A stretch of 64,000 nucleotides of DNA, from the NCBI RefSeq assembly GCF_011762155.1, contig NZ_JAASQL010000002.1:248001-312000 (forward strand), read 5' to 3'. A program made the position numbers and the translations under genes. Below are positions 50,518 through 59,667 of this stretch, piece by piece. Below the pieces are notes generated by a model. It was not told where the DNA came from, did no database searches, and saw nothing but the letters and a program-made list of their open reading frames with translations. Every line of letters begins with the position of its first letter. Position 1 is the first letter of the stretch. The DNA is from Wenyingzhuangia heitensis. GTDB taxonomy: Bacteria > Bacteroidota > Bacteroidia > Flavobacteriales > Flavobacteriaceae.

Positions 50518-51786
50518 ATGAAAAATAGATATCGTTTTACTTTTATTGTTTTTATTGTTTTTTTTAGTTCTTGTACTAAAGAGTCTTATACAGCAGTAGA
50601 AGTTGTTTCATTAAAAGAAGAGCTTACCCATCAAAATATAATTGATGAGATCCTAAAGATTGATTTGACGAATTTATTGAATTACGAAAATCAAAATATT
50701 CCTAATTACATAATAAAAGACAATACACCTGTAAATAATTCTATAACAAATGCAGGAGCAACTTTAGGTAGGGTTTTGTTTTACGATAAAAAACTATCTA
50801 GTAATAATACCATTTCATGTGCAAGTTGTCATCAGCAAGAATTTGCGTTTTCTGATAGAGCACAATTTAGCCAAGGAGTAAATGGGCAAACATTAAGACA
50901 TTCTACACGTTTAATAAATGCTAGGTTCTCTGATGAGGTAAATTTTTTTTGGGATGAAAGAGCTTCTAGTTTAGAAATGCAAGCAACAATGCCTATTAAG
51001 GATCATAGCGAAATGGGATTTAGTGGTTTAAACGGAGCTCCTAATTTTCAAGATTTGATTATTAAACTTTCAGCTACTACTTATTATCCTATTTTATTTA
51101 AAAAGGTATATGATGATGTAGCTATTACAGAAGAAAGGATGGGAAAAGCATTGTCACAGTTTATAAGAAGTATTCAGTCTTTTGATTCAAAATATGACAT
51201 AGGTCTTGCACAGGTAAATTCACATACAGATGATTTTCCAAATTTTACAACGGAAGAAAACAAAGGAAAACGTTTGTTTACCGAGGATTTTAAATATGTG
51301 ATTGAAAGCGTTACTATAGAAAAATTTGGTGGAGATTTAACAGTGGTAGCAGCACATCGTATAAGTGGTGGATTAAATTGTGCGAGTTGCCATAGAGCAC
51401 CAGAGTTTGATATTGATCCGTTGTCTTTAAATAACGGATTTGATCGTCCACTAAACGGAAATTCTTTACTAGAACGAGATTTTACTGTTACACGTTCTCC
51501 AACACTTAGAGATTTAATTCGTCCTAATGGAGAATTAAATGAACTAAACAGCCCCATGTTTCATGCAGGTACTACCAATGATTTGTTAGGAGGTATTATA
51601 GCCAATTATAATTTTAAAGACATTCATACAGATAATCACAATTTAGATGCTCGTTTGACTCCAGAAGGTTATCCTCAATTTTTAGACATGAATACTGAGG
51701 AAAGAAATCAATTAATGGCATTTTTAAACACCTTAACCGGTAGTGATGCTTACATAAATACAAAATGGTCTAATCCTTTTAGATAA
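50518..51786 (+). CDS. Di-haem cytochrome c peroxidase-like lipoprotein
   Basis: Periplasmic protein of 422 residues that should reduce H2O2 using electrons from cytochrome c, or act as a MauG-like oxidase. Lipobox FSSCT with Cys19. The two c-type haem sites are Cys101-A-S-C104-H105 and Cys288-A-S-C291-H292. ATLGRVLFYDKKLS, FSDRAQFSQG, ERASSLEMQATMPI and TLRDLIRPNGELN...MFHAG fit the CcpA/MauG family (PF03150). It lies 225 bases upstream of the TMEM220-ebo operon on the same strand but behind a separate promoter, so functional linkage is only suggested by proximity. Confidence 0.92.
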   Translation: MKNRYRFTFIVFIVFFSSCTKESYTAVEVVSLKEELTHQNIIDEILKIDLTNLLNYENQNIPNYIIKDNTPVNNSITNAGATLGRVLFYDKKLSSNNTISCASCHQQEFAFSDRAQFSQGVNGQTLRHSTRLINARFSDEVNFFWDERASSLEMQATMPIKDHSEMGFSGLNGAPNFQDLIIKLSATTYYPILFKKVYDDVAITEERMGKALSQFIRSIQSFDSKYDIGLAQVNSHTDDFPNFTTEENKGKRLFTEDFKYVIESVTIEKFGGDLTVVAAHRISGGLNCASCHRAPEFDIDPLSLNNGFDRPLNGNSLLERDFTVTRSPTLRDLIRPNGELNELNSPMFHAGTTNDLLGGIIANYNFKDIHTDNHNLDARLTPEGYPQFLDMNTEERNQLMAFLNTLTGSDAYINTKWSNPFR

Positions 51787-51890: not shown

Positions 51891-51920
51891 TTGTTTGTAT
51901 TTTTACAGTGAATAAATTTG
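51891..51920 (+). promoter_or_regulatory. Bacteroidota-type promoter of the TMEM220-ebo operon
   Basis: TTG at 51891-51893, a 19-base spacer and TAAATTTG at 51913-51920 match TTG-N19-TAnnTTTG exactly, 92 bases before the first ATG (52012). A second -7-like TAAGTTTG at 51945-51952 lacks a TTG at the right distance. The leader would be about 85 bases. Confidence 0.75.
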
Positions 51921-52011
51921 AACATAACTAAACAAAAACTTTTCTAAGTTTGTTTTGTTCTTATTTTTTTAAGGGAACTAAGTCATTATTAATAATAAAT
52001 CCATTGTATAA

Positions 52012-52380
52012 ATGAAGATTTCTTCGAAAACAATCAATATTATTCTTTTTGTTTTATTTAGCTTGTTTGCGGTTGTGCAGTTAAACGATCCAGATAGTGC
52101 TGTGTGGTTTTCTATATACGCTGCAGTAGCTGTAATATGTGTGTATTCCGCTTTTAAAACACTTCCTAAACTATTTCTAATCGTTGTAATTGCATTATTG
52201 TTAGGGTATTCTTTGTTTTATTTTTCCCTTTTTATAGATTATTTACAAATAGATCATAAAGAAGAAATTTTTGGAACTATGGTATATGAAAAACCATATT
52301 TAGAAGGATCTAGAGAGTTTATGGGTTTATTAATTGCTGCATTAGGTGTTTTGTATCAATTAAAAAAAAGAAAAGATTAA
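52012..52380 (+). CDS. TMEM220-like small membrane protein
   Basis: Protein of 122 residues with four predicted membrane helices (about 8-22, 30-48, 52-74 and 104-117). LFSLFAVVQLNDPDSAVWFSIYAAVAV matches the QLNDPD-W signature of the transmembrane family 220 (PF15071), found in eukaryotes and bacteria and without a known function. It has its own strong promoter and lies 37 bases before eboA with no terminator, so it is probably co-transcribed with the ebo cluster. Whether it belongs functionally to the Ebo system is an open question that comparative genomics could settle. Confidence 0.82.
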   Translation: MKISSKTINIILFVLFSLFAVVQLNDPDSAVWFSIYAAVAVICVYSAFKTLPKLFLIVVIALLLGYSLFYFSLFIDYLQIDHKEEIFGTMVYEKPYLEGSREFMGLLIAALGVLYQLKKRKD

Positions 52381-52417
52381 ACAAGGTAGTTTTTAATAGT
52401 TAATTTATTTTAATACT

Positions 52418-53212
52418 ATGATTTCAAGAAAAGAACAAGTACAATTTATATCTACCATACAATCACAATTTTCATCAAAAGAATTTGAATGGATTGCTGT
52501 AAAAATCAATCAAACTGCATTGGTGGAGAATAGTAAAAAATTCAATATTTTTTTTAGTCTAGTATCTAGATTTATAAGCGATAAAGTTTGTGAATGGAAT
52601 TCAGATCAAAAAGAAGCATTAGAAAATATATATCCAGGTTTTACTTTAAGTAACTGGAACAAACAAGAATTGGCTCGTGTTCAGTTAATGATGAGTTTGC
52701 CTATTTCTGTAAACAAATCTATCATTCTATCTTTTTTTGAAACTGCCGAAATAAAAGAGCAAGTAGCCTTGTATAAAGGATTGTATTTGTTAGAAAATGC
52801 ACAAGAGTTTACTCATCAATATACAGAAGGAATAAGAACAAATATTGCGGATGTTTTTGATGCCATTGCTTTTGGAAACCCTTTTGCCAAAGCCTATTTA
52901 AGTGAAGCAGAATGGAATCAGCTAATTTTAAAATGTTTTTTTATGGATAGAAACATTTCTAAAGTACAAGGATTAGATGATGGAAAGAATAAAGATTTAG
53001 CGACCATGTTACAAGAGTTTGTAAAAGAACGCTGGGCAGCAGGTAGACAAATCCCAATAGAAGCTTGGAGAATGATAGAAGGGTACCTTAGAGAAGATGT
53101 AAAAGAATTAATTTTAAAAAGAACATCTACAGGAGTAGAAAAAGAAATATTAGATACATTAATAGCAAACAAACCGTTGAGTCCTAATTATTGGAATAAC
53201 AACGATAAATAA
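52418..53212 (+). CDS. eboA: EboA-like protein (first core gene of the ebo cluster)
   Basis: Cytoplasmic protein of 264 residues, largely alpha-helical, with no recognisable catalytic motif, signal or membrane segment. Assigned EboA from its place at the head of an otherwise typical B-C-D-E-F run and from segments such as NWNKQELARVQLMMSLP, DVFDAIAFGNPFAKAYLSEAEWNQLILKCFFM and KERWAAGRQIPIEAWRMIEG, which are characteristic of the EboA family as I know it. Its biochemical role is unknown. It begins 37 bases after the TMEM220-like gene and ends 8 bases before eboB. Confidence 0.85.
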   Translation: MISRKEQVQFISTIQSQFSSKEFEWIAVKINQTALVENSKKFNIFFSLVSRFISDKVCEWNSDQKEALENIYPGFTLSNWNKQELARVQLMMSLPISVNKSIILSFFETAEIKEQVALYKGLYLLENAQEFTHQYTEGIRTNIADVFDAIAFGNPFAKAYLSEAEWNQLILKCFFMDRNISKVQGLDDGKNKDLATMLQEFVKERWAAGRQIPIEAWRMIEGYLREDVKELILKRTSTGVEKEILDTLIANKPLSPNYWNNNDK

Positions 53213-53220
53213 TATATAAA

Positions 53221-54123
53221 ATGAATTTTATAGATCCACACATTCACATGGTCTCTCGTACAACAGATGATTATGAAAACATGAGAGCTGCAGGAATTGT
53301 AGCTGTTATAGAACCTGCTTTTTGGTTAGGACAACCCCGTACAAACGTAGGATCTTTTAAAGATTATTACAGTACGTTGGTAGGTTGGGAACGTTTTAGG
53401 GCTTCTCAATTTGGAATCAAACATTACTGTACTATGGGGTTAAATTCTAAAGAAGCAAACAACGAAGCTTTGGCAGATCAGGTGATTGAATTGTTGCCAC
53501 AGTTTATAGCCAAAGAAGGAGTGGTTGCTATTGGAGAAATAGGGTATGATGATCAAACAGAATTAGAAGATAAATACTTTAGAATTCAGTTAGAATTAGC
53601 CAAAGAATACGATTTACCTGTATTGGTTCACACACCACACAGAGATAAAAAACAAGGAACTTTAAGAAGTATGGATGTGGTAGAGGAACACGGAATCCCA
53701 CCACATTTGGTATTGATAGATCATAACAACGAGGAAACAGCCAAAGCAGTTTTAGATCGTGGTTTTTGGGCAGGATTTACTATTTACCCAAAAACTAAAA
53801 TGGGTAAAAAAAGAATGGTAGAAGTAGCAAAACAATATGGTTCTACCAAAGTAATTGTAGATAGTTCTGCAGATTGGGGGGTGAGTGATGCGTTATCGGT
53901 TCCTAAAACGGCCGCCTTAATGTTAGAAAGAGGGGTTTCTAAAGAAGATGTTCACAAAATTTGTTATCAAAATGCATTGTCTTTTTATGGTCAAAGTGGA
54001 CAGTTTAACGAGTCTGATTGGGTACAAGATAACAACGTAAATCAAGCAGATTTATTAGAAGGAAATTCAGTGTTAAGAGGTCAAAATCCTAAAGAAATTA
54101 GTTTTAAAGGAATGGCTAAATAA
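53221..54123 (+). CDS. eboB: EboB, TatD-like metal-dependent hydrolase
   Basis: Amidohydrolase/TatD-type TIM barrel of 300 residues. Metal-binding residues are seen at Asp5-x-His7-x-His9 (DPHIH), Glu106 (GEIGYD), His137 (VHTPH), His168 (IDHNN) and Asp214 (VDSSADWG), a complete TatD-like set, so the enzyme should be active. The C-terminal extension past residue 245 (NQADLLEGNSVLRGQNP) is family-specific. In ebo clusters it is the second gene, and its substrate is unknown. Its stop codon overlaps the eboC start by one base (TAATG), indicating coupled translation. Confidence 0.9.
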   Translation: MNFIDPHIHMVSRTTDDYENMRAAGIVAVIEPAFWLGQPRTNVGSFKDYYSTLVGWERFRASQFGIKHYCTMGLNSKEANNEALADQVIELLPQFIAKEGVVAIGEIGYDDQTELEDKYFRIQLELAKEYDLPVLVHTPHRDKKQGTLRSMDVVEEHGIPPHLVLIDHNNEETAKAVLDRGFWAGFTIYPKTKMGKKRMVEVAKQYGSTKVIVDSSADWGVSDALSVPKTAALMLERGVSKEDVHKICYQNALSFYGQSGQFNESDWVQDNNVNQADLLEGNSVLRGQNPKEISFKGMAK

Positions 54124-55022
54124 TGAAGAACAAAAAGATTGAGGCTTTACTGTTAATTATAAGACCTGCAAATGTGATTACCTCTATTGCAGATGTGTTG
54201 GCAGGAATAGCCATTGTAGGTTATTTAAATTATAGTGGTGTAGACAACACATTGTTTTTACACGGAATTTTACTATCTATTGCTACAGCTTGTTTGTATG
54301 CAGGGGGAATTATTTTTAACGATGTTTTTGATCTAGAAGCAGATAAAATAAATAGACCAGAGCGTGTAATTCCTAGCGGAAAATTAAGTTTAAAAGAAGC
54401 TAAAATAGCAGGAATTGTTCTTTTTTTTATTGCCATAATGGCAACTTTCTTAGTGTCTCTATTTAGTACTTTAGTAGCTCTAGGAGTTGTAGTTTGTGCT
54501 TTGAGTTATGACAAATACGCAAAACACAACACTTTTTTAGGGCCTATAAATATGGGGATGTGTAGAGGTTTAAATCTAATTTTAGGGATGAGTATCATTA
54601 CTAGTTTAGATGCCAAATATTACTTAATTTCTCTATTGCCAATTTTATTTGTTTCTGCCATTACCTTAACGGCTCAAAAAGAAACCAAAGGGAAAAATAA
54701 ATTAGCCATAGGATTGGCAATGCTTTTAGATTTAAGTATTGTTGTTGGGTTTTTATTTATTGCTCAAAACTTTAACTTTTCTCTACAAAAAGCAGGAGTT
54801 TTTCTTGCCTTTTGGTATGGTGTAAATGTAGTAGCTAAAATAAATGCTATTGTAAAAAATCAACCCAAATTAATAATGAAAGCGGTAAAAATAGCAGTAT
54901 TGTCTTTAATACCGTTAAACGCAAGTTATGTTGCCGGATTTAGTTCTGTAACCAACGCATTATTGGTACTATGTTTGTTACCAATTTCGTTATATCTATC
55001 AAAAAAATTCCCTGTTACCTAA
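54123..55022 (+). CDS. eboC: EboC, UbiA-like prenyltransferase
   Basis: Integral membrane protein of 299 residues with about eight or nine helices. The first Asp-rich motif is N66-D67-V-F-D70-L-E-A-D74, followed by KINRPERVIPSGKLS, the UbiA signature. The second is the SYDKYAKHNTFLGPINMGMCRGLN segment from about residue 129. This means it should attach a prenyl chain to a small polar, probably aromatic or sugar-phosphate-derived, acceptor in the membrane. Together with a DHQS-like and a TIM-barrel enzyme, the family suggests synthesis or transport of a lipid-linked cyclitol or similar compound. eboD starts 4 bases downstream. Confidence 0.92.
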   Translation: MKNKKIEALLLIIRPANVITSIADVLAGIAIVGYLNYSGVDNTLFLHGILLSIATACLYAGGIIFNDVFDLEADKINRPERVIPSGKLSLKEAKIAGIVLFFIAIMATFLVSLFSTLVALGVVVCALSYDKYAKHNTFLGPINMGMCRGLNLILGMSIITSLDAKYYLISLLPILFVSAITLTAQKETKGKNKLAIGLAMLLDLSIVVGFLFIAQNFNFSLQKAGVFLAFWYGVNVVAKINAIVKNQPKLIMKAVKIAVLSLIPLNASYVAGFSSVTNALLVLCLLPISLYLSKKFPVT

Positions 55023-55026
55023 GTTT

Positions 55027-56175
55027 ATGAAGGCACCTAAAATTATAAAGCAATCTTTTCAAGTTCACTTTAGTTTCAATTTACTTTTTACAAGTAATTT
55101 GTTCAATACCCAAAATACCACTTTAGCCAATACAATTATTGATAAAGATAGAGTAGCCAAGGTATTGGTTATTTTAGACAGTGGAGTTTCTATAGCTCAC
55201 CCGGACTTAAAAAATAATATACAGCATTATTTTAAACATTACCAAGAACAAATAAGTTTGCAAGGTGATGTGATGGAAATTCCTGGAGGAGAAACCGCAA
55301 AAAATAACGATGCACATATCAATTCCGTTCTAGAAAAAGTAAATGCTTACGGTATAGATAGGCATTCTTATATTGTGGTGATTGGAGGTGGAGCAGTGTT
55401 AGATGCTATGGGATTTGCTGCTGCAATATCACACAGAGGAGTTCGTTTGGTGAGAATACCAACCACGGTATTATCTCAAAACGATTCTGGAATTGGAGTT
55501 AAAAATGGAATCAACTTTTTAGGGAAAAAGAATTTTACAGGAACGTTTGCAGTTCCTTATGCTGTTATTAACGATGATGCTTTTTTAACAACTTTAGATG
55601 AACGAGATTGGAGATCTGGAATATCTGAAGCTATAAAAGTAGCATTGATAAAAGATTATGAATTTTTTGAATGGATAGAACAAAATACATCTGCCTTAAA
55701 TAATAGAAATTTAGAAGTGATGAATGAGTTGATTTATCGTTGTGCAGATTTGCACATGAAACACATTCAGAATTCTGGAGATGCCTTTGAACAAGGTTCT
55801 TCTCGGCCTTTAGATTTTGGTCATTGGTCTGCACATAAATTAGAACAATTATCCAATTTTAACATAAGACATGGTGAGGCTGTAGCTATAGGTATTGCTT
55901 TAGATAGTGCTTATTCTTATTTACAAGGTCATTTATCAGAAACAGAATTACAACGTATTTTAGACACGACTTTAAATTTAGGTTTTTCTATTTCTTATGA
56001 TGAAATGGATGCAAACGTAATTAAAGGATTAGAAGAGTTTAGAGAACATTTAGGAGGGAAGTTAACCATTATGTTGTTGTCTGCTTTGGGTACTGGTTTT
56101 GAGGTTCATGAAATGGAATCTGACATTGTATTAAAATCCATAGATTATTTAAACAAATACGTGTCTAAAAAATAG
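55027..56175 (+). CDS. eboD: EboD, 3-dehydroquinate synthase-like sugar phosphate cyclase
   Basis: Sugar phosphate cyclase of 382 residues. The NAD-binding site shows PGGETAKN (86-93), GGGAVLDAMGFAAA (120-133) and RIPTTVLSQNDSGIGVKNGIN (143-163). Zinc ligands equivalent to those of dehydroquinate synthase are Glu201 (GISEAIKVALI), His266 (DFGHWSAH) and His282 (RHGEAVAIG). The family also contains 2-epi-5-epi-valiolone and desmethyl-4-deoxygadusol synthases, so the ring made here may be a cyclitol rather than dehydroquinate. It is not next to shikimate genes, which favours a specialised substrate. The DFGHWSAH sequence replaces the usual NFGHT-x-GH, a change typical of the divergent Ebo branch. 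Confidence 0.92.
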   Translation: MKAPKIIKQSFQVHFSFNLLFTSNLFNTQNTTLANTIIDKDRVAKVLVILDSGVSIAHPDLKNNIQHYFKHYQEQISLQGDVMEIPGGETAKNNDAHINSVLEKVNAYGIDRHSYIVVIGGGAVLDAMGFAAAISHRGVRLVRIPTTVLSQNDSGIGVKNGINFLGKKNFTGTFAVPYAVINDDAFLTTLDERDWRSGISEAIKVALIKDYEFFEWIEQNTSALNNRNLEVMNELIYRCADLHMKHIQNSGDAFEQGSSRPLDFGHWSAHKLEQLSNFNIRHGEAVAIGIALDSAYSYLQGHLSETELQRILDTTLNLGFSISYDEMDANVIKGLEEFREHLGGKLTIMLLSALGTGFEVHEMESDIVLKSIDYLNKYVSKK

Positions 56176-56184
56176 ATTAGAAAA

Positions 56185-57393
56185 ATGGAAATAAACCAAG
56201 GACATTTAACGTATTGTACCAACATACATCCTGGAGAAACTTGGGAGGAAGTTTTTGAGAGTTTAAAGAAATATACATTGGCTGTTAAAAGTAAAGTGTC
56301 TTCTAGTAAACCCTTTGGAATAGGCTTGCGTTTGTCTGCAAAAAGTGCCTTTGTTTTATTACAAGATAATCATCTGCAAGAGTTCAAACAATGGTTAGAA
56401 GCAAATCAACTATATGTTTATACGATGAATGGTTTTCCGTATGGAGATTTTCACAACGTAGCCATTAAAGATCAAGTACATGTGCCAGATTGGACGACAG
56501 AAGATCGGATTGTTTATACTCAGAATTTAATAAAAATATTGGCTTATTTACTGCCAAATAAAATAGATGGTGGAATTTCTACCTCTCCATTGTCTTATAA
56601 ATATTGGTTTGATTCAACTGATGAAAAACAAAAAGTAACCCGCATTACTTGTGAGTCTATTGCTAAAATAGCCTTGGATTTAATAGATATTAAACAAGCG
56701 ACAGGAAAAAATATTCACTTGGATATTGAACCAGAACCCGATGGTTTTTTAGAAAACACACAAGAAGTGGTTTCTTTCTATGAAGATTATTTGCTACAAA
56801 CAGGAGCAAATTTTGTAGCAGAGCATAAAGGTTGTTCTCTAGAAAAGGCAAAGGAACATTTGCTAAATCACATTCAGGTTTGTTACGATGTTTGTCATTT
56901 TGCCTTGGCTTATGAAAGTCCAGAACATGTGATTTCTACTTTTTTGAGTAAAAATATTCAGATAGGGAAAATACAAATTAGTTCAGCGATTAAGTGTCAA
57001 AAATCAGAAAAGGTATCTATACAAACTCAGCAAGAATGTTTGCAACAATTTGATGAACCAACATATTTACATCAATCTATTGTACAGTTGCAAAACCATA
57101 GTTTGGTGCATTTTTCAGATTTATCACAAGGGATTGCATTGATGAGTTCACCAGATTTTAAAGAGATTAGAACCCATTTTCATGTACCCATTTTTACAAC
57201 AGATTTTAACGTAGTACAATCTACTCAAGATGAAATTGTAAAGGCTTTAGAACTTTGGAAACAGATAAAATATACCCATCATTTAGAAATAGAAACCTAT
57301 ACTTGGGGAGTGTTGCCAAATGATTTACAAACAGATATGACCAGTTCTATAGTTAGAGAATTGAATTGGGTGATTGATCAATTAAAAGAATAA
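56185..57393 (+). CDS. eboE: EboE, TIM-barrel sugar-phosphate-isomerase-like protein
   Basis: Cytoplasmic protein of 402 residues related to xylose-isomerase-like TIM barrels. The start GHLTYCTNIHPGETW is the recognised Ebo-family N-terminus. Likely metal or sugar-binding residues are in HLDIEPEPDGFLENTQE (Asp and Glu), CYDVCHFALAYE (Asp, Cys, His), the later IQISSAIKC and FHVPIFTTDF. It lies 9 bases after eboD and 7 before eboF. Database entries call the family 'metabolite traffic protein EboE'; the reaction is not known. An isomerase or epimerase acting on the EboD product would fit. Confidence 0.88.
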   Translation: MEINQGHLTYCTNIHPGETWEEVFESLKKYTLAVKSKVSSSKPFGIGLRLSAKSAFVLLQDNHLQEFKQWLEANQLYVYTMNGFPYGDFHNVAIKDQVHVPDWTTEDRIVYTQNLIKILAYLLPNKIDGGISTSPLSYKYWFDSTDEKQKVTRITCESIAKIALDLIDIKQATGKNIHLDIEPEPDGFLENTQEVVSFYEDYLLQTGANFVAEHKGCSLEKAKEHLLNHIQVCYDVCHFALAYESPEHVISTFLSKNIQIGKIQISSAIKCQKSEKVSIQTQQECLQQFDEPTYLHQSIVQLQNHSLVHFSDLSQGIALMSSPDFKEIRTHFHVPIFTTDFNVVQSTQDEIVKALELWKQIKYTHHLEIETYTWGVLPNDLQTDMTSSIVRELNWVIDQLKE

Positions 57394-57400
57394 GTTTTTT

Positions 57401-58792
57401 ATGAATAAAACAGTGGTTATTAATATTGTAGGATTGTCTAGTGCATTGCTAAAGCACAAGGAACTTTTTTTAACACAATGGATTAAAAAAAGAAATGTTT
57501 CTAAAATAAAACCAGTTTTACCTGCAGTTACCTGTGCTGCACAATCTACTTATTTAACAGGAAAATGGCCTAATGAACATGGTATAATTGCTAACGGATG
57601 GTATTTTAAAGAGCAATCTGAGGTGATGTTATGGAAACAATCTAATCACTTGGTAGAAGCTCCTAAAATTTGGGATGTAGCCAAAAGTAAAAATGCAGCA
57701 TTTACATCTTCTAACATGTTTTGGTGGTACAACATGTATTCTAATGCAGATTACAATGTAACTCCAAGACCACAGTACAGAGCCGATGGTCAAAAAAAAC
57801 CAGATTGTTATTCCAAGCCAGGAGAGTTAAGAGATCAACTACAAAGTAAATTAGGAACGTTTCCTTTGTTTCATTTTTGGGGACCTAATACGTCTATTAA
57901 AGCTACAAAATGGATTGCCGATGCTTCTAAATTAGTTTTTGAATGGCACCAACCAACCCTGCAATTAATCTATTTACCACACCTAGATTATGTATTGCAA
58001 AAAACAAATGAGGAACAAACCATTTTAAAAAATTTACAAGAGTTAGATGTTGTTTTTAAAGATTTGGTCGCTTTTTATGAAGCCAATAATGTGGAGATTA
58101 TAGTCTTGTCAGAATATGGAATTGCTCCTGTAAAAGCACCGTTTCACATCAACCGTTTATTAAGAGAAAACAATTTACTTCAGATTAGAGAAGAAAATGG
58201 CTTAGAATTGTTAGATGCAGGGGAGAGTGCAGCTTTTGCAGTGTCCGATCATCAAATAGCGCATGTATATGTAAAAGACAAAAGTAAGATAGATTTTCTG
58301 AAAAAACTATTGGCAGATTGTCCAGAAATTGATTTGGTATTGGATTCAAAAGACCAAAAAAAGTATCACATCAACCACAAAAGATCTGGGGATTTGGTTG
58401 TGGTGGCAAAACAAGACTATTGGTTTACGTATTACTATTGGCTAGACGATAAAAAAGCACCTGATTTTGCAAGAAATGTAGATATTCATAAAAAACCAGG
58501 TTACGACCCAGTAGAGATGTTTACTGATCCTAAGAAAAAAATGATGACTGCTCGAATTATTTTTAAAATTCTAAAGAAAAAGTTAGGTTTTAGATCTATG
58601 CTAGACATTATTCCGTTAGATGCAACTTTGGTAAAAGGATCTCATGGAGCTGTAAATATAGAAGAAGATTATTATCCTTTAATTATTCAAAATATTAAAA
58701 ATGTGTCGACTCAAAAGGATTCTTTTTTACAAGCTACAGATGTTTTTGAACTTATTTTAAACCAAGTGTTTGCTAAGGATTCAGAAGTGTAA
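57401..58792 (+). CDS. eboF: EboF, alkaline-phosphatase/nucleotide-pyrophosphatase-like protein
   Basis: Protein of 463 residues of the type I phosphodiesterase/nucleotide pyrophosphatase fold. The nucleophile is Thr44 in PAVTCAAQSTYLTG. Family metal ligands differ from the norm: the N-terminal Asp of the usual IDGL is Val10 (NIVGL), and the usual SDHG is S-E238-Y239-G240. Asp196 in YLPHLDYVL and His415 in GSHGAVN remain. A metal-poor or altered active site is therefore possible. I recall the same IVGL and SEYG in other Ebo-cluster proteins, so this is a family trait rather than decay. Last gene of the cluster, ending 3 bases before a convergent AraC gene. Confidence 0.9.
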   Translation: MNKTVVINIVGLSSALLKHKELFLTQWIKKRNVSKIKPVLPAVTCAAQSTYLTGKWPNEHGIIANGWYFKEQSEVMLWKQSNHLVEAPKIWDVAKSKNAAFTSSNMFWWYNMYSNADYNVTPRPQYRADGQKKPDCYSKPGELRDQLQSKLGTFPLFHFWGPNTSIKATKWIADASKLVFEWHQPTLQLIYLPHLDYVLQKTNEEQTILKNLQELDVVFKDLVAFYEANNVEIIVLSEYGIAPVKAPFHINRLLRENNLLQIREENGLELLDAGESAAFAVSDHQIAHVYVKDKSKIDFLKKLLADCPEIDLVLDSKDQKKYHINHKRSGDLVVVAKQDYWFTYYYWLDDKKAPDFARNVDIHKKPGYDPVEMFTDPKKKMMTARIIFKILKKKLGFRSMLDIIPLDATLVKGSHGAVNIEEDYYPLIIQNIKNVSTQKDSFLQATDVFELILNQVFAKDSEV

Positions 58793-58794
58793 AA

Positions 58795-59667
58795 TTAAAG
58801 ATCTTTACTTAATAATGTTCTAAATTTACTAGGAGTTTGTTGGGTGTGTTTTTTAAACAATCTAGAAAAGTAAGAATAATCTTCATAGCCTAAACTAGTG
58901 GCAATTTGGTTGATAGATGCATTGCTAAAAGTGAGCATTCGTTTACTTTCTAACACAATTTTCTGAGAGATTAACTCTGTAATTGTTTTGTTTAACAGCT
59001 CTTTACAAATTCTGTTTAAATGTTTTAAGGTAATGTTCATTTTAGAAGCGTAAAAAGAAGGAGATTTTTCTGTAGTATAATAACAATCTAGTAGTTGATT
59101 GAAAATTTTTAGTTTTTGATGATATGTTTGATGTGAATAGGTGTTTTCTGATAAAAATTTTCTAGAGATTTCTATGTGAATAACATCAATAATATTTAAT
59201 AATTTATCTTTTTTTCTAGATTTAAGTTGTTGATTTTCTTTGATTAAGAGTTTGAAATAAAACTCAATATCTAAAAGTTCTTTCTCGTTAAATAGAATTT
59301 CAGATATATTTTTAGAAGGTTCATAAAACGGATATTCTTCAATTCTTTTATGACCAAAATACAGGTTGTAAATCTCATCAGAATAAAAAAGAATATAGCC
59401 ATCAATATCATTAGAAAGCTCCCAGCCATGTGCTTGTCCAGGTTTTAAAACATACAAACTCCCTCTTTTAATACTAAAGGTATTAGAGTCTATATTGTGT
59501 GTTCCTGTTCCGTTGGTAAATAATACCAAAAGGTAAAAATTATGACGATGAGACTTTTCTATAAAACTATGTTCTATCAAATGATTTTTAAAAGTATTTA
59601 TGTACAAATGGTCTTTGTTACTACTATCGTTAAAATTCTGAATAGTATATATAGGCACTTTTTTCAT
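58795..59667 (-). CDS. AraC-family transcriptional regulator with cupin domain
   Basis: Regulator of 290 residues. The cupin sensing domain at about 20-110 includes HNFYLLVLFTNGTGTHNIDSN and LYVLKPGQAHGWEL (a typical PG-x-HxW cupin end). The C-terminal double helix-turn-helix includes FYASKMNITLKHLNRICKELL and INQIATSLGYEDYSYFSRLFKKHTQQTPSKFR. It ends 3 bases from the eboF stop in convergent orientation with no terminator, so it could influence the ebo transcript by antisense read-through, but direct control of ebo is not shown. Its start lies 110 bases from the DUF983 gene on the other strand. Confidence 0.9.
   Translation of the reverse strand: MKKVPIYTIQNFNDSSNKDHLYINTFKNHLIEHSFIEKSHRHNFYLLVLFTNGTGTHNIDSNTFSIKRGSLYVLKPGQAHGWELSNDIDGYILFYSDEIYNLYFGHKRIEEYPFYEPSKNISEILFNEKELLDIEFYFKLLIKENQQLKSRKKDKLLNIIDVIHIEISRKFLSENTYSHQTYHQKLKIFNQLLDCYYTTEKSPSFYASKMNITLKHLNRICKELLNKTITELISQKIVLESKRMLTFSNASINQIATSLGYEDYSYFSRLFKKHTQQTPSKFRTLLSKDL

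Follow-up and report, generated by a model that had tools for sequence, protein, structure and literature searches.

The 64-kb stretch of Wenyingzhuangia heitensis DNA analysed here (contig NZ_JAASQL010000002.1, hereafter the window, from an assembly of 3.67 Mb) carries an ebo operon: six compact, co-directional genes in the order ABCDEF, which are preceded by a gene encoding a small TMEM220-like membrane protein (Table 1). Sequence comparison shows eboA-F to be complete, and shows the TMEM220 family to be tied to ebo in Bacteroidota by both co-occurrence and position. The spacers measure 37 bases between the TMEM220 gene and eboA, 8 between eboA and eboB, 4 between eboC and eboD, 9 between eboD and eboE and 7 between eboE and eboF, whereas eboB and eboC overlap by a single base. 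An earlier description of the locus made from the letters alone (the sequence-only reading) had reported six ebo genes in canonical order at 52418-58792, with gaps of 4 to 9 bases or a 1-base overlap; the open reading frames bear out both statements and profile searches uphold the cluster call.

Table 1. Features of the locus (positions in the window) and, in the last four rows, PF12902 gene pairs at comparison loci (positions prefixed by the locus)
Feature	Position	Strand	Basis or remark
MbnH/MauG-like di-haem enzyme gene	50518-51786	+	PF03150 family; upstream of TMEM220
Promoter-like motif, Bacteroidota-type, TTG-N19-TAAATTTG	51891-51920	+	pattern match upstream of the TMEM220-like gene; weak
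TMEM220-like membrane protein, 122 aa	52012-52380	+	PF15071, 74.7 bits (cut-off 27), profile 1-98 of 100; linkage and co-occurrence; model pLDDT 91.3
eboA, all-helical protein, 264 aa	52418-53212	+	NF035938, 144.6 bits (cut-off 50); model pLDDT 95.8
eboB, TatD-like metal-dependent hydrolase	53221-54123	+	PF01026, 68.6 bits
eboC, UbiA-superfamily prenyltransferase	54123-55022	+	NF035940, 310.5 bits (cut-off 250)
eboD, DHQS-related sugar-phosphate cyclase	55027-56175	+	NF004852, 556.7 bits (cut-off 333)
eboE, TIM-barrel protein	56185-57393	+	NF035939, 477.3 bits (cut-off 250)
eboF, alkaline-phosphatase-superfamily protein	57401-58792	+	PF01663, 194.7 bits; altered metal-site residues
AraC-type regulator	58795-59667	-	convergent with eboF, 2 bases apart
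PF12902 gene pair	L136:10070-13058
PF12902 gene pair	L148:10264-13199
PF12902 gene pair	L193:3156-6122
PF12902 gene pair	L194:2783-5624

EboC, EboD and EboE all exceed the cut-offs of their NCBIfam models, that for EboD bearing the NCBI name 3-dehydroquinate synthase (DHQS). EboA passes a domain model and falls under the cut-off of the narrower EboA family model (NF035937; 169.8 versus 320 bits); we file the gene as EboA because the domain match and the position fit. No dedicated Ebo model matched EboB or EboF in the profile search, and these were placed through broad families. The TMEM220-like protein is a near full-length match to its family profile.

The passages of PMC5133447 that deal with the operon describe six genes in the order ABCDEF as the ancestral form in Bacteroidetes, and give Bacteroidetes, cyanobacteria and eustigmatophyte plastids as its hosts. 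The same six genes in the same order are present here, but the six-gene definition given in those passages of the text is without TMEM220. By itself the cluster is an ordinary find, already known from marine flavobacteria among others; what is newly supported is its TMEM220 partner. No connection between the two was found in the text of the papers listed from the open-licence PMC literature, and literature searches retrieved no bacterial role for TMEM220, the listed papers that use the name concerning human or animal genes.

Co-occurrence and position of TMEM220 and ebo

Two genome samples were searched, with EboE as the marker of ebo: 199 genomes of the window's family and 296 of its phylum. 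In the family sample, PF15071 occurs in 43 genomes, EboE in 31 and both in 29, such that TMEM220 accompanies 29/31 EboE-positive versus 14/168 EboE-negative genomes (Fisher p 5e-22). The corresponding numbers for the phylum sample are 40, 24 and 18, with TMEM220 in 18/24 EboE-positive versus 22/272 EboE-negative genomes (p 3e-13), and in 14 of 20 EboE-positive genomes once the listed members of the window's family are removed. Two EboE-negative genomes (G079 and G280) were counted as TMEM220-positive by E-value, though they score under the family cut-off, and G021 was counted as EboE-positive. In the region fetched from this last genome (L138), which has no TMEM220, eboE stands alone between miaE and dnaX. 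A control family, PF03150, is weakly associated (26/31 versus 113/168; p 0.046). On these sequence counts, the association of TMEM220 with ebo in Bacteroidota is well supported, kinship not being accounted for.

A third, named set comprised 80 ebo loci, being the best EboE-alignment matches listed from a scan of genome contigs; it holds several species per genus and shares at least four genomes with the other samples. Among these listed matches, TMEM220 lies inside the ebo flank at 31 of the 80 loci. For 45 of the other 49 the genomes were searched (L209, L211, L251 and L269 were left out), and 30 have TMEM220 outside the flank; the 15 without it are 12 cyanobacteria, Abditibacterium and two Flavobacterium. 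Put by label, 60 of the 62 Bacteroidota-labelled ebo genomes examined have TMEM220 (31 in the flank, and 29 of the other 31 elsewhere), but 13 of the 14 non-Bacteroidota genomes searched do not. The lone one that does is a metagenome-assembled genome (MAG) labelled Thalassovita (L254, L287), in which ebo genes occur and whose TMEM220 clusters with that of Flexithrix; because of this grouping, the assembly may be mixed.

Gene positions were mapped in the EboE-positive genomes of both samples, minus the window's own, and around 29 TMEM220 genes elsewhere. The partner proposed in the sequence-only reading would fail if TMEM220 rarely neighboured eboA in related genomes, and it survives: TMEM220 lies near ebo in 27 of 31 EboE-positive genomes of the family sample (26 adjacent, with G050 three genes off); the exceptions have it unlinked (G018 and G110) or absent (G021 and G195). 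Across the phylum sample it is linked in 6 of 24, unlinked in 12 and absent in 6; in G369 and G368 it is on the ebo contig, ~21 and ~35 kb away, respectively.

Neighbours within three genes were surveyed at 128 ebo loci, chosen by EboE and not by TMEM220 and with duplicates removed; grouping relied on the profile for TMEM220 and on BLAST for the other families, although BLAST alone likewise joins all 58 TMEM220 neighbours. These 58 loci place TMEM220 first among the neighbours of ebo, and it occurs in six classes of position and orientation: on the same strand, after eboF (32 loci) or before eboA (18); on the opposite strand, before eboA (4) or after eboF (2); once between an extra eboF and eboA; and once three genes downstream. 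The placement in front of eboA, given in the sequence-only reading for the window, is not general, as the commonest place is behind eboF. At 48 of the 61 linked loci (a total that counts two duplicates), -4 to 46 bases separate TMEM220 from the cluster. Next in frequency are dnaX (33 loci) and miaE (31), each identified by Pfam from one representative; together they form one chromosomal context, that of a tail group in which TMEM220 follows eboF.

On a quick tree of EboB, EboC, EboE and EboF from 118 loci, the window's arrangement makes up a seven-member group with support. The same arrangement in Pedobacter, Mucilaginibacter, Daejeonella and Ferruginibacter stands apart from it, as do the tail group (31 loci), Chitinophaga (divergent), and Hymenobacter and a Cyclobacteriaceae MAG (both convergent). 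Trees of TMEM220, built on few alignment columns and unresolved at many forks, also separate window-type, tail-type and other groups. Since the placements scatter on both the ebo and the TMEM220 trees, the linkage probably arose several times, separately. In Salegentibacter sp. 24, a member of the Flavobacteriaceae, the TMEM220 adjacent to eboA (L203:5499-5906) groups with the Algoriphagus type, and its ebo genes do likewise, which is consistent with joint transfer of the two. That single ebo cluster has a second TMEM220 gene upstream (L203:418-786), of another lineage and separated from the first by two genes. In G110, a tail-type ebo has no TMEM220 of its own, and a window-type TMEM220 lies on another contig.

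Alternatively, TMEM220 could be an envelope gene in its own right, frequent in the same kinds of Bacteroidota, whose adjacency to ebo reflects inherited gene order and no functional tie. We consider this rather unlikely. In its favour, the largest group (31 loci) mostly represents the single miaE-dnaX context, and TMEM220 stays in that spot in four EboE-negative genomes (G032, G037, G126 and G184) and is present in many others that lack EboE. In G018, too, it sits between miaE and dnaX, with ebo elsewhere. Moreover, unlinked TMEM220 genes often adjoin those for TonB receptors and sugar enzymes: 95 neighbouring proteins from 24 such loci include 12 TonB plug domains, 5 GFO/IDH/MocA and 4 ThuA proteins, 4 xylose-isomerase-like TIM barrels and 4 3-keto-disaccharide hydrolases. 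The background set for these neighbours (96 proteins drawn from farther out at ebo loci, of which 12 from cyanobacteria and 2 from Abditibacterium were left out to give 82) is small and itself ebo-derived, and we do not lean on it; it also contains 4 3-keto-disaccharide hydrolases, and the other families are absent among the 25 shown. An independent gene would not, however, readily account for the ebo-adjacent TMEM220 genes of separate lineages found in several other contexts and orientations, nor for co-occurrence where linkage is absent, in 12 of 18 such EboE-positive phylum-sample genomes and throughout most of the Bacteroidota part of the named set (29/31 among the matches listed).

Several findings nevertheless weigh against a functional partnership of TMEM220 with ebo. 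The counts and Fisher tests ignore shared ancestry. The EboE-negative genomes that encode TMEM220, including those with the miaE-dnaX arrangement, imply that the protein has, or had, another role; the remaining copies in such genomes are scattered over different surroundings, and seven adjoin members of a single TonB-receptor family. TMEM220 serves more than ebo alone. Conversely, ebo can work without it, as the 6 of 24 EboE-positive phylum-sample genomes and nearly all the non-Bacteroidota ebo genomes lacking it attest, together with a search of 146 cyanobacterial genomes that found none (the controls were silent there too, and the same model matches in Bacteroidota). Nor was a solved relative found for TMEM220: a fold search of the PDB gave no match with E <= 0.001 and a profile search of PDB sequences nothing convincing, so no activity can be assigned to it. 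The suggestion in the sequence-only reading that TMEM220 is an added component of the system therefore stands as an association, tempered by its linkage in a quarter of the EboE-positive phylum-sample genomes (6/24), its presence in ebo-less ones and its absence from cyanobacteria (0/146), on which last ground we reject it as a universal ebo gene.

Four ebo loci from genomes that lack TMEM220 (G195, G356 and two Flavobacterium) carry, co-directional with eboA and upstream of it, a ferritin-like PF12902 gene together with a partner of ~600 residues for which no Pfam match was found; at L194, one short open reading frame lies in between. PF12902, a family known from VioB/RebD-type proteins, is rare (7 of 199 family-sample genomes), and none was found in the window's genome. 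On the ebo tree, G356 is sister to a Hymenobacter that carries TMEM220 and not the pair; on sequence grounds, the pair is a possible replacement for TMEM220. Such a swap would suit an explanation in which TMEM220 is a cargo-side gene that acts on a compound exported or modified by ebo, and other genomes use other cargo genes; the passages of PMC6282210 that tie cyanobacterial ebo to scytonemin genes would fit as well. We think this improbable: there are only four cases, which may go back to two events, G002 combines a linked TMEM220 with a PF12902 gene at another location, and TMEM220 looks too constant for a cargo gene.

Predicted properties of TMEM220 and the Ebo proteins

The AlphaFold2 model of TMEM220, computed from 58 sequences, has helices at residues 5-25, 29-48, 53-68, 71-79 and 95-121. 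The family's ND..W and E..RE motifs are invariant: Asn25, Asp26, Trp32, Glu98, Arg101, Glu102 and Gly105 are present in 58/58 rows, and Asp28 in 56/58. Mean counts of Lys plus Arg are 2.0 for the N-terminus, 1.6 for the second loop and 3.2 for the C-terminus, versus 0.14 for the first loop and 1.3 for the third (which also has 2.5 Asp plus Glu). By the positive-inside rule, these counts make a periplasmic orientation of the invariant polar residues probable.

EboF was compared with the solved nucleotide pyrophosphatase/phosphodiesterase (NPP) of Xanthomonas in an alignment of 124 rows (one of 125, under 400 residues, was dropped); overall scores are weak, although the motifs are clear. Relative to the metal-binding residues of the Xanthomonas enzyme, the site's first Asp is replaced by Val10, one His by Gln200 and another His by Tyr239 in all 124 rows, and a further Asp by Glu238 in 121; the nucleophile Thr44 and Asp196 are kept in all 124 and His415 in 123. 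EboF thus lacks residues of the two-metal site expected of a nucleotide pyrophosphatase/type I phosphodiesterase, and because three site residues are replaced in every row, canonical two-metal hydrolysis is unlikely. The label 'pyrophosphatase' ('pyrophosphatase-like' in the sequence-only reading) is consequently doubtful, which calls into question the annotation used in published pathway schemes. The conventional reading would treat EboF as a standard phosphodiesterase with two metals and the cluster as a plain prenylated-cyclitol pathway, with TMEM220 as a bystander; it agrees with the PF01663 score, with the retained Thr and two other site residues and with the account in PMC5133447, as far as its passages go. 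Set against the three replacements, and against the report, in passages of PMC6282210, that the Nostoc ebo mutants made (eboD not among them) all accumulate one same intermediate, we judge it decidedly improbable.

EboC has the first Asp-rich motif of the UbiA superfamily, NDxxDxxxD, with Asn66, Asp67, Asp70, Asp74, Arg78 and Pro79 in 118/118 rows; in the region where we presume the second motif to lie, Glu187 alone is present in 118/118. EboB retains a conserved D-x-H-x-H motif, and its closest solved chain is 3guw. EboD scores under the AroB cut-off of TIGR01357 (235.9 versus 305 bits), whereas a separate housekeeping aroB in the genome (G000:C2:505032-506045) passes it with 331.5 bits, and a role for EboD as the housekeeping DHQS is therefore rejected. 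A fold search with the EboA model gave no PDB match with E <= 0.001, and profile searches of EboA and EboE against PDB sequences yielded nothing convincing.

A possible role for TMEM220, and flanking genes

We tentatively favour, with slightly less than even confidence, a seven-gene ebo operon in which TMEM220 is a Bacteroidota-type inner-membrane partner that handles the ebo lipid. The mechanism, which is inferred, follows published models. EboD would cyclize a sugar phosphate to give a cyclitol-like head group, and EboC, sited in the membrane, would attach a prenyl chain, probably farnesyl, to an acceptor. EboB and EboE may then modify the prenylated compound, with EboA as a scaffold; EboF, with its altered metal site, would bind a substrate that contains phosphate, or transform it in a non-canonical reaction, or act as a binding protein. 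The membrane-bound product would move, or would itself be, the small molecule that crosses to the periplasm, where TMEM220 would handle the lipid on the outer face of the inner membrane; its invariant Asn-Asp, Trp, Glu, Arg and Glu residues lie at helix ends predicted to point outward. A more specific proposal, which we hold to be rather unlikely as it stands, is that TMEM220 supplies the missing membrane piece of ebo in Bacteroidota, flipping, accepting or maturing the lipid on the periplasmic side, and that another protein does so in cyanobacteria and elsewhere.

Parts of this scheme have precedent. The prenylated cyclitol-like product proposed by the sequence-only reading is not new, having already been put forward as a hypothesis in PMC5133447, according to its passages on the operon. 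Relevant sections of PMC9235831 report that Ubi-297, the EboC of ebo clusters in marine Bacteroidetes (Maribacter, Zobellia and Algoriphagus), farnesylates quinolines in vitro; these enzymes share the DxxDxxxD motif with the EboC described here, but the activity is known from those homologues rather than from this organism, and the same sections make no mention of TMEM220. In Nostoc punctiforme, which has homologues of eboA, B, C, E and F, ebo has been shown to help carry the scytonemin monomer into the periplasm, the monomer being retained in the cytoplasm of ebo mutants (passages of PMC6282210); it differs in belonging to the cyanobacteria, which were without TMEM220 in the 146 genomes searched.

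In the passages of the literature consulted, the product of the widespread and conserved ebo cluster is still undefined. Repeated, differently arranged linkage would make TMEM220 a new handle on ebo, as a candidate seventh component, and places the TMEM220 family in a bacterial context; if the partnership is real, it would be the first functional clue for a family that includes a human protein.

Upstream of the TMEM220 gene, the promoter-like motif, called with a Bacteroidota-type consensus and coinciding with the first position (51891) of the span described in the sequence-only reading, is suggestive only, as the loose pattern TTG-N17..21-TAnnTTTG has 9 matches on the window's + strand. The PF03150 gene preceding it was rejected as a member of the unit, given nine matches to that family in the genome and its weak association with ebo. 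At the other end, distant relatives of the AraC-type regulator lie near ebo at L246, L224 and L200, in varying positions.

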